Shown: positions 58,689 through 61,484 of the stretch, in pieces
Layout of the letters: each line of letters begins with the position of its first letter
How positions within the stretch are numbered: position 1 is the first letter of the stretch
Assembly: GCF_007625115.1 (NCBI RefSeq)
Contig: NZ_VMNH01000004.1
Coordinates: 186,001-250,000, forward strand
DNA: 64,000 bases
Origin: Sedimenticola selenatireducens
Lineage (GTDB): Bacteria; Pseudomonadota; Gammaproteobacteria; Chromatiales; Chromatiaceae
Direction: 5' to 3'
Notes under the pieces: generated by a model
Told to the model about the DNA's origin: nothing
The model's database searches: none
Seen by the model: only the letters and a program-made list of their open reading frames with translations
Translations under genes and position numbers: made by a program

Positions 58689-59483
58689 TTAATCATCATG
58701 GTCTCGTCTTCTGTAATTACGCTGATCAAATCCTTCCGAGTTCAGTTGCCGCTGCATTTCGCTTTTATAGCCTCCTGACCGCCAAATTCTTTTGGCTTCA
58801 TCTTCATCACCACTGCGATGGCATTCAGCACAATTTTCATAGTCCCTGATACCCTCTTCAAAATGCTCCTCACGGATTTTTGAACGAGAGTGTTCATGAC
58901 ATCCATAGCAGGTGTATTTCGTATAGTCGTTATTAATATGACAGGTTGCACATTCCGTTGTGTGATCACGGTCAAAACGGAAATACTTGTCGTGCTCGAA
59001 CGTGGCCGGGAGCCATGCATCATTGCTATGACACTGTGCACAGTTACCCGTGATCTTTAGGTGGAACGCATCCCCTGGATTGCTGTGGCAGCTGTCACAC
59101 TGATCCTGTACTGAAGTTTGCAGAAGCTCATGGGAAAACTGTCCAATGGGCCTGAATGGCTGAACACCCTTGTGTTCGCTATGGCACGCAACGCAATCAT
59201 CCTCGACCAACTTCTGATGAAATGCGACATTCTTCTGCTCTTTATCAATTATGACCCCTTTGGTTGTCTTGATACCGATATCAGCGACCGAATGACAGGA
59301 AATGCACTGCTGAGCCGTGCTGCCGATGAAAGGGGTATGGCAGGCAAAGCAGTCGTTTGCAAGTTCAATATGTGCCTCAACAGGTTTTCCCGGACTGATC
59401 ATTAGGTGTGGTGCAAAGATTGCCAACAGAACGAGTACAATCAAGTTCAGCGCAACAATAAAGGTGATTCGTTTTTTATTCAT
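58689..59483 (-). CDS. Octaheme membrane-anchored c-type cytochrome
   Basis: This 264-residue protein has an N-terminal uncleaved-looking hydrophobic anchor (about 5-25) and eight CxxCH haem motifs: CFACH, CISCH, CVACH, CDSCH, CAQCH, CATCH, CYGCH and CAECH. Several additional His residues could be distal ligands, as in cytochrome c3/c7-type domains. The charged tail is rich in Arg and Asp. The ATG at 59483 overlaps the stop of the preceding membrane gene (ATGA); another ATG lies at 59489. It is the last gene of a three-gene redox operon and presumably faces the periplasm. Confidence 0.9.
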   Translation of the reverse strand: MNKKRITFIVALNLIVLVLLAIFAPHLMISPGKPVEAHIELANDCFACHTPFIGSTAQQCISCHSVADIGIKTTKGVIIDKEQKNVAFHQKLVEDDCVACHSEHKGVQPFRPIGQFSHELLQTSVQDQCDSCHSNPGDAFHLKITGNCAQCHSNDAWLPATFEHDKYFRFDRDHTTECATCHINNDYTKYTCYGCHEHSRSKIREEHFEEGIRDYENCAECHRSGDEDEAKRIWRSGGYKSEMQRQLNSEGFDQRNYRRRDHDD

Positions 59484-60058
59484 TTCCATTGCCAGAAAAG
59501 AAAGATGCTAAGAATATGTGTCAAACCCAGTACAGCAAAAGCAAGCGTGATCGGTAAATGAATGGTACGCCACTGCTTCATCAAATCGTAAGTTGTGGCA
59601 TCCCAAAAGAGTTTTTTATCTACTTCTTCAGCAGAAAACCCTTGTTGATTATAAATCTCCTTTTTTTCGGCAAGGAAACGTTTAGAACGATCAAGAAGGT
59701 ATTTACCCGTCATACCACTGATGACGTTAGTTAACATGGCTATCAACGCGAGCCAGGGCAGAATGGCATAAACGTGAATCCCGGCATGTACTAGAATAAA
59801 CAGCGCGCCAATCCATGTCAGGGTTTCGTGTATCGTCAGCAGTGTTTTTGGTTTACCAAAGCTGATCTTTTTTCGCTTGCGTAGTGAGTATATAAATGAC
59901 GAGAGAATCAACAGAGTTCCAGGTATGCCAAGCCAGCGTCCGATCCAGGCAAGTTCAAACTGATGCAATAGGGCATCTGATATGATGGTAGCCAAGATCA
60001 GAGCGCCGAACATCAGCAGGAATGGCATAACTTCTTTTCTTATGAGTGAGCGTTGCAT
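59480..60058 (-). CDS. Predicted diheme b-type membrane cytochrome
   Basis: This 192-residue protein has about five TM helices. Four histidines are placed as two pairs, His77/His91 in one helix and His167/His181 in another, each pair 14 residues apart. That is the layout for two stacked b haems across the membrane, as in NOX/ferric reductases and cytochrome b561-like proteins. A charged loop lies between (about 120-160). I know no exact family. It sits between the FAD/2Fe-2S reductase (9 bp gap) and the octaheme cytochrome (4-bp overlap), so it is probably the transmembrane link between them. Confidence 0.75.
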   Translation of the reverse strand: MQRSLIRKEVMPFLLMFGALILATIISDALLHQFELAWIGRWLGIPGTLLILSSFIYSLRKRKKISFGKPKTLLTIHETLTWIGALFILVHAGIHVYAILPWLALIAMLTNVISGMTGKYLLDRSKRFLAEKKEIYNQQGFSAEEVDKKLFWDATTYDLMKQWRTIHLPITLAFAVLGLTHILSIFLFWQWK

Positions 60059-60067
60059 GATGATTCT

Positions 60068-61336
60068 CTAAGCTGCCAGTGTCAGATTATTTTTTGGTCT
60101 GGTTATACACAATAAGCAGTTGCCTGATTCCACATCGGCATCCGCCTGCTGACTATATTCTACTTCACCCGATTCAATAGCCGTTTGACAGCTACCGCAA
60201 CTACCGGCACGACAACCGGATTGGACATCGATGCCCTGAGCTTCAGCAAACTCCAGCAGTGACTCTGCATTCTGATCCCAGGTAATTTTCTTCCCAGATT
60301 TGCTAAAGGTAATATTGATATCCTTATCTACCGATTGACTGGCTTTAGTTTTCACTCTGACTTGTCGTACCAGTGTGGCGGGACCGAAAGATTCGTAATA
60401 GACATCCCGGCTCTGCACGCCTAACTCTGATAAACCAGGAACCAATGTCTCCATCATTGGTTTGGGACCACAGATATAAAATTGATAACGCTGAAGCTTA
60501 AGTGTGGCACGTAAGAGAGAGATATCCACTCGTCCCCTGTGCTGATAATCAACGCCCTCCACCTCCTGTACAGTAGGACGGCTAAAACAGCAATGTAAAT
60601 GAAAACGGCTATGCGCTTTGGCCAGTGAACGAAGATGCTCTTGCATCACCAATTCACTGCTATTACGTACACCATAGAACAACCAGATTTCTCTCTGACT
60701 GCCACTCTCCAGTAAAGTATTAAGTATACTGAGCATTGGAGTGATGCCGATCCCACCACCAATCAACACCACTGGCAGCGCTTCCTCTTCTATCAGATGG
60801 AAGTGGCCAGAGGGTGCGCGAATTTGTAGGCGTGCCCCCTCCTCCACATGATCATGAAAATAGTTTGATGAAACACCGGGAGAAAGCTCTGGCCGGTTGT
60901 CTGGAGACGGTACCCGTTTGATAGAGACCCGATAATAATCGGGATGGTAGTTATCAGAAAGAGAGTAACAACGTATGACCGTTTTTTCCTGGCCGGTGGC
61001 AAGGTCCGGAATCAAAAGCTTGAAAGTAAGAAATTGCCCCGGCTTGAATTGCGGCAGGGGTTGGCCATCAATGGGTTTAAGATAGAATGAACAGATTGAT
61101 GCCTGTGTGTCTTCAATCTGTCGACGTATTACAATAAATTCCCTAAACCCTTTCCATCCAGTGTCTTCATTTAGCAATGCAGCGCCCTGACTATCGGCAT
61201 GTTCTGTCTCAAAGGCAGACTCGCCAGCTTTATTTTTAAACGTCCTGTGCCGGCGATAGAGACCGAGCATCATACTCATGCCGACTTGGGCAAGGATCAC
61301 AACAAATATGATTAATGCTAGGTATCCGATTGTCAT
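60068..61336 (-). CDS. Membrane-anchored FAD/NAD(P)H oxidoreductase with 2Fe-2S ferredoxin domain
   Basis: This 422-residue protein has an N-terminal TM (about 3-24), a ferredoxin-NADP-reductase-type FAD domain (RCYSLSDN near residue 125), an NAD(P)-binding domain (VLIGGGIGITPMLSIL near 195) and a C-terminal plant-type ferredoxin (CRAGSCGSC near 374-382, then the fourth Cys in NCLLC near 409). It should move electrons between NAD(P)H, FAD, an Fe-S cluster and the diheme cytochrome b encoded next. Architecturally it resembles methane/phenol monooxygenase reductases reordered with the ferredoxin at the end. First gene of its operon, with a CRP-like palindrome 127 bp upstream. Confidence 0.92.
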   Translation of the reverse strand: MTIGYLALIIFVVILAQVGMSMMLGLYRRHRTFKNKAGESAFETEHADSQGAALLNEDTGWKGFREFIVIRRQIEDTQASICSFYLKPIDGQPLPQFKPGQFLTFKLLIPDLATGQEKTVIRCYSLSDNYHPDYYRVSIKRVPSPDNRPELSPGVSSNYFHDHVEEGARLQIRAPSGHFHLIEEEALPVVLIGGGIGITPMLSILNTLLESGSQREIWLFYGVRNSSELVMQEHLRSLAKAHSRFHLHCCFSRPTVQEVEGVDYQHRGRVDISLLRATLKLQRYQFYICGPKPMMETLVPGLSELGVQSRDVYYESFGPATLVRQVRVKTKASQSVDKDINITFSKSGKKITWDQNAESLLEFAEAQGIDVQSGCRAGSCGSCQTAIESGEVEYSQQADADVESGNCLLCITRPKNNLTLAA

Positions 61337-61462
61337 GTAAGCGCATCCTTATCCACATTACGAAGCATGGTCTTTTCGTTAGCTAAACTTAGCATGGGCT
61401 TTATGAAATGAAGCTGAAAATACCGACCAAATGGTTGGGGAAATGATCGCTGTTTGTCTGTA

Positions 61463-61484
61463 GCAAGTGACCTGCATCACTTGC
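61463..61484. promoter_or_regulatory. Perfect GTGA-N6-TCAC palindrome, CRP/FNR-superfamily-like operator
   Basis: The arms GCAAGTGA (61463-61470) and TCACTTGC (61477-61484) are exact complements around a 6-base spacer CCTGCA. The core GTGA-N6-TCAC equals the core of CRP/Vfr sites and the spacing of CRP-family dimers. It lies 127 bp upstream of the reductase start, so it may activate the redox operon. No CRP-family gene is in the window. Confidence 0.5.

Follow-up and report, generated by a model that had tools for sequence, protein, structure and literature searches.

A conserved NAD(P)H reductase, cytochrome b and octahaem cytochrome c gene set associated with the SHP system and predicted to form a transmembrane electron wire

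Three adjacent genes of Sedimenticola selenatireducens appear to encode a transmembrane NAD(P)H:cytochrome c oxidoreductase that would feed the DHC/SHP pool and would be switched on together with the SHP operon, a reading that we favour with moderate confidence. The argument is built from features that can be read in the genomes themselves, namely gene architecture, co-conservation, motif invariance, predicted topology, homology to PCC3 proteins, linkage to SHP genes, and a shared upstream box. The genes lie head to tail on the minus strand in the order reductase, b, and c8 (61336 to 58689) within the window, by which we mean the whole stretch of 64,000 nucleotides that was analysed.

60068 to 61336, minus strand: NAD(P)H-FAD-2Fe-2S reductase, 422 aa (Pfam NAD_binding_1, Fer2, FAD_binding_6)
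59480 to 60058, minus strand: putative dihaem cytochrome b, 192 aa, five transmembrane helices (invariant histidines, AF2 model, PCC3 homology)
58689 to 59489, minus strand: membrane-anchored octahaem cytochrome c (c8), 266 aa (Pfam Cytochrom_c3_2 / Cytochrome_C7)
61403 to 61419, minus strand: predicted response-regulator box TTTCAGCTTCATTTCAT, 17 bp, 83 bp upstream of the reductase start codon

Nine bases separate the stop codon of the reductase gene from the start of b, and b and c8 overlap by 10 bases, or by 4 if an inner methionine is the start. All three open reading frames were found as given in a preliminary description of this DNA, which had proposed a three-gene redox set with 9-bp and overlapping junctions. 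A scan of 84,980 species genomes returned 302 stretches encoding relatives of b, and the best 80 of these 302, which were kept, come from Sedimenticola, Thiodiazotropha, Chromatiaceae, Beggiatoa-like bacteria, Rhodospirillales, Magnetococcales, Gallionellaceae, Rhodocyclaceae, and others. The trio is conserved in the Gamma-, Beta-, and Alphaproteobacteria and the Magnetococcales. Among these best 80, the c8 gene directly follows b in all 79 testable loci and the reductase gene directly precedes it in 73 of 77, mostly 0 to 10 bp away. The co-occurrence exceeds chance. The genes are thus co-conserved and, as set out below, the four histidines of b are conserved, so both objections anticipated in the preliminary description, loss of the histidines and lack of co-conservation, fall away. 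A search of a plasmid collection gave a single distant match.

Four loci with full flanks (L067, L072, L075, and L084) hold b and c8 without a reductase, and no reductase orthologue was found elsewhere in their genomes, which suggests that b may have another donor, perhaps quinol. The regulatory box still stands upstream of b in the reductase-less L067 and L072. The trio-type b/c8 pair of L075 is 75% identical to the window protein and sits in a record labelled Candidatus Anammoxibacter; contamination of this MAG seems likely.

The reductase begins with a single transmembrane helix followed by positive charges, for which the positive-inside rule predicts an N-out/C-in orientation, and the same holds in nearly all relatives with a complete N terminus. 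Behind the anchor lie a flavohaemoglobin-type FNR module and then a C-terminal plant-type 2Fe-2S domain, whose cysteines (C375, C380, C383, and C410) are at least 95% conserved among relatives; the FAD/NAD motifs RCYS, GIGxTP, and CGP are conserved as well. The best PDB match is flavohaemoglobin 1cqx (E = 1.7e-51), with the homology confined to about residues 56 to 321, and Pfam found no globin family in the reductase.

In the b subunit, H77 and H91 lie on TM3 and H167 and H181 on TM5, each pair 14 residues apart within one helix just as the preliminary description had placed them, and an SGxxG motif lies on TM4. The four histidines are invariant in 63 homologous sequences and are retained in a distant family of about 300 aa; S114, G115, G118, and the set W163-H167-H181 are likewise invariant in the 63. 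An AF2 model built from the alignment has a mean pLDDT of 87, and its helices, including 70 to 94 and 158 to 188, fit five transmembrane segments. The suggestion of a split ferric reductase/NOX stood in part. Two HX13H motifs on TM3 and TM5, the spacing and helix placement known from PF01794, are found in b. But the FAD/NAD domain is not fused to the membrane domain, since a gene of its own encodes it both here and in 73 of the 77 testable relatives, and the profile link is lacking: b matched no Pfam or NCBIfam family above cut-off and no PF01794 at E ≤ 1, hhalign of its alignment against MsrQ and FRE (ferric reductase) alignments was not significant, and profile comparison with a cytochrome b561 alignment gave no homology. 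Structural comparison of the model was no more specific, with csNOX5 (5o0t) as a weak top row in Foldseek (E = 0.48) and VIA Z scores of 6 to 9 for NOX, b561, and b6f, the same level as for unrelated helical bundles. The b subunit would thus work like a split NOX, yet by sequence it is not a member of the NOX/ferric reductase family.

The third protein, c8, has an N-terminal transmembrane helix and eight CXXCH motifs, in agreement with the earlier count of eight haems, and matches class III and c7 models in Pfam. All eight motifs and nine other histidines are at least 95% conserved among relatives, which is sufficient for bis-histidine ligation of eight haems; in some lineages the relatives carry 10 or 12. 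The AF2 model of c8 (mean pLDDT 47.6) was set aside.

The family to which b does belong is that of PCC3. The PCC3 inner-membrane protein has been described as having five helices, SGXXG on TM4, HX13H on TM3 and TM5, and likely two b haems (He et al. 2017, PMC5566968). The b subunit carries every element of the PCC3/PCC4 motif definition (five helices, SGXXG on TM4, WX3HX13H on TM3 and TM5) except the tryptophan on TM3, and hhalign aligns it with the PCC3 protein of about 300 aa at a probability of 98% (E = 5.6e-14, 89 columns). By profile comparison, then, b is a relative of the PCC3 inner-membrane protein. The same authors, in their section "Other multiheme cytochrome c," mention porin-less sets in which a multihaem c is accompanied by a shorter five-helix protein and another redox protein (He et al. 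2017, PMC5566968), and it is likely that the window trio belongs among them.

This kinship bears on where b obtains its electrons, since He et al. (2017, PMC5566968) proposed that the inner-membrane proteins of PCC3/PCC4 are linked to quinone. If that proposal carries over, b would exchange electrons with the quinone pool and the reductase would be an auxiliary input or serve something else, a reading with which the four loci holding b and c8 alone are consistent. It sits poorly with a dedicated, anchored NAD(P)H reductase encoded directly upstream in nearly all testable loci, and also with what surrounds the PCC3-type genes themselves: in 9 of 12 loci examined, the gene for the PCC3-type b is near one for a homologous N-anchored protein that combines two 4Fe-4S domains with Pyr_redox_3. 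We therefore consider a quinone-linked wire rather unlikely. The neighbourhoods would suggest that an anchored NAD(P)H-type flavoprotein tends to accompany b in either branch of the family, though of an unrelated kind in each, and an anchored flavoprotein usually near PCC3 puts in question a quinone-only model of its link to metabolism. The flavoprotein-bearing PCC3-type loci are L038, L040 to L044, and L048 to L050, and the flavoprotein does not figure among the PCC3 components that the text of He et al. names.

Homology of both the b and c subunits to PCC3 parts also raises the idea that the trio is a small version of PCC3, in which the octahaem protein would discharge electrons through the outer membrane onto minerals or onto other cells. 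The surroundings of the trio argue otherwise. Neither a porin nor an extracellular multihaem cytochrome is present in the window neighbourhood, no porin was noticed in the loci read, and a second multihaem gene of the PCC3-like kind present in L038 to L050 was not seen beside the trio in relatives. He et al. make the same argument for porin-less sets, and we judge an extracellular outlet improbable.

At the level of sequence, linkage and a shared upstream box place the trio with the SHP system, an association that is new here. To our knowledge, SHP is the sole c-type haem protein described as binding oxygen, and its role and electron source have long been open. The genes that recur beside the trio are those of cytochrome b561 (PF01292), SHP (PF09086), and DHC (PF09626), together with a PepSY protein, a response regulator, a sensor kinase, and EF-hand proteins. 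The first three constitute the SHP operon, cytochrome b561-SHP (DUF1924)-DHC, in which b561 was proposed to use quinol (Meyer et al. 2010, PMC2909971). In 17 of the 80 loci (the best 80 of 302), the trio has SHP and/or DHC no more than 8 kb away, several of them as one co-directional operon. In Thiocapsa (L078 and L082) the order b561-SHP-DHC-reductase-b-c8 runs on one strand, the DHC-reductase-b-c8 core recurs in Thiocystis, Thiobaca, and Parabeggiatoa, and in Sedimenticola hydrogenitrophicus the trio is followed by cytb561-SHP-DHC. Because gene orders differ between classes, we argue that the trio and SHP have become associated repeatedly. In the window's own genome the trio and the SHP operon are on different contigs.

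Co-occurrence across genomes agrees with this linkage. SHP was detected in 36 of 46 trio genomes versus 42 of 274 in a class sample, a comparison uncorrected for shared ancestry, and within the class sample it was found in 5 of 8 trio genomes versus 37 of 266 others (Fisher P = 0.003, likewise uncorrected for shared ancestry). Many of the 10 trio genomes in which the search detected no SHP are incomplete MAGs.

A second line of evidence comes from the box upstream of the reductase gene. Box TTTCAGCTTCATTTCAT is a direct repeat with an 11-bp period, is also given as TTTCAGNTTSRWTTCAK in Sedimenticola, and occurs, as such or as a close variant, at about −70 to −120 of the trio in many loci; outside Sedimenticola, Thiodiazotropha, and near relatives, it is no longer recognisable. 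The search pattern, TTTMAGNTTSRWTTCAK, was derived from trio promoters, so that its matches at the trio are circular and the 17 matches at other regulon genes are not. Of the 25 exact boxes present in nine genomes of the genus, 22 sit 58 to 126 bp before regulon genes (the trio in 5 cases, the SHP operon or SHP in 8, PepSY-RR-SK in 6, and the EF-hand gene in 3), and the reversed-pattern control gave 0. Within the 4.03 Mb of the window's genome, the pattern matches exactly five times and the reversed control not at all; three of the five stand before the trio, the SHP operon on its other contig, and the PepSY-RR-SK1 operon, and a box with one mismatch precedes the EF-hand gene. One complete genome of the genus (G324) has neither the trio nor an exact box. 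We infer that the PepSY-linked response regulator binds the box; its OmpR-type output domain fits a direct repeat. In the accompanying sensor kinase, the motifs SGHYYQ and RSLWD vary on those that Meyer et al. (PMC2909971) list for SK1. FNR/DNR, HcpR, and NsrR boxes, which were also looked for upstream of the trio, occurred in at most 2 of 60 loci, with no clear excess over shuffles.

Some further observations concern these upstream regions. The other two exact boxes of the window's genome lie between divergent genes of unrelated kind (L200:6519) and inside a coding region (L199:6978). Upstream of the box, window positions 61463 to 61484 hold an inverted repeat, GCAAGTGA-N6-TCACTTGC, overlapped by CACTTGCAAGTG, which is not conserved in the closest relative, L051. 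In the S. selenatireducens genome G323, an exact box precedes a second SHP gene (L218, G323:C6:33262-36278), and a full ferric reductase gene (L145) follows or precedes it at a distance of a few kb.

Taken with the topology, these findings point to the following route for electrons. The anchored reductase would oxidise NAD(P)H at FAD on the cytoplasmic side and pass electrons singly through its 2Fe-2S centre to an inner b haem (H77/H167), from which they would cross to an outer b haem (H91/H181) and finally reach the anchored octahaem c8. The most likely periplasmic recipient would be DHC, which would hand electrons to the oxygen-binding SHP, and the wire would run parallel to the SHP-operon b561, thought to be quinol fed. 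The shared box would let one PepSY/response-regulator/SK1 system turn on the wire together with the SHP operon. Cofactor occupancy, the pairing of ligands, the outward direction, and the hand-over to DHC/SHP are the parts of this scheme that we infer. A work that Meyer et al. cite (PMC2909971) describes DHC in its title as low-potential, and a protein so described would suit an NAD(P)H-level donor better than ubiquinol.

The proposal in the preliminary description of a transmembrane wire between NAD(P)H and the periplasm is well supported, and its added "or the reverse" now seems unlikely. The membrane potential helps electrons to leave the cytoplasm for the periplasm and would oppose their inward flow to NAD+. 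Used in reverse, the trio would bring periplasmic electrons from sulfur, iron, or minerals inward to make NAD(P)H for CO2 fixation. The hosts are indeed largely sulfur- or iron-oxidising autotrophs, within the class sample all 8 trio genomes carry dsrA, compared with 85 of the 266 others, and in A. vinosum growing on pyrite the SHP cluster (Alvin_0020-0025) and an 8-haem cytochrome rise (PMC11267869). That cytochrome is a candidate equivalent of c8. Such use would nevertheless call for donors with potentials far below −320 mV, no site of coupling was seen, and about one-third of the 46 trio genomes sampled contain no real dsrA; we think it very improbable. The missing dsrA genes also indicate that Dsr sulfur oxidation does not by itself account for the function, and a strict role in that pathway was rejected in spite of the enrichment. 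Outside the window, its genome has two full-length dsrA genes (G000:C41:62162-63361 and G000:C28:32106-33311), as have the S. selenatireducens genome G323 and S. hydrogenitrophicus. The window's genome also holds a molybdopterin oxidoreductase gene whose neighbours are of 4Fe-4S, multihaem, and chaperone-like kinds (L203, G000:C27:5000-14292), a set that looks like a respiratory operon of the chlorate/selenate/nitrate type.

The outward NAD(P)H-driven wire that we favour can be set beside several known systems. With NOX, ferric reductases (FRD), and MsrPQ it shares the path from a cytosolic flavin reductase through transmembrane b haem(s) to the periplasmic side, and the histidine spacing of b equals that of FRD/NOX; it differs in that b has no detectable homology to theirs, the reductase is separate and differently built, and the end point is an octahaem c. 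Flavohaemoglobin (Hmp) is the closest solved relative of the reductase's FNR module, whereas the trio reductase is without the globin domain, is membrane anchored, and has an additional 2Fe-2S domain. NO dioxygenase activity has been reported for SHP (Li et al. 2008, as cited in PMC2909971). It is conceivable, though we hold the idea only tentatively and think it on the whole unlikely, that the trio and SHP form a transmembrane counterpart of flavohaemoglobin, in which a cytoplasmic flavohaemoglobin-type reductase drives the periplasmic SHP haem through the two b and eight c haems. If so, NAD(P)H would power NO or O2 chemistry beyond the inner membrane.

PCC3 resembles the trio in its homologous five-helix b, with HX13H on TM3 and TM5 and SGxxG on TM4, in a periplasmic multihaem c whose N-terminal part is homologous to c8, and in the N-anchored NAD(P)H/FeS flavoprotein often found nearby, which parallels the reductase. 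In contrast to PCC3, the trio comes without a porin and without an extracellular cytochrome of 30 to 60 haems; its b has 192 rather than about 300 aa, its c 8 to 12 rather than 21 to 24 haems, and its flavoprotein an FNR module and 2Fe-2S domain in place of 2[4Fe-4S] and Pyr_redox_3. The porin-less sets of He et al. have the same short five-helix protein with two HX13H motifs beside a periplasmic multihaem c and a redox protein, although the section describing them gives neither a regulon nor a link to SHP. Finally, the SHP operon draws its b561 from another family (PF01292) than the trio b and is without an NAD(P)H reductase, but it too amounts to a periplasmic chain of low-potential cytochromes fed by a membrane b cytochrome, and it has the PepSY/RR/SK1 regulators and the box in common with the trio. 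A conserved NAD(P)H-linked wire that shares operons and a box with SHP thus offers a testable electron donor for this protein.
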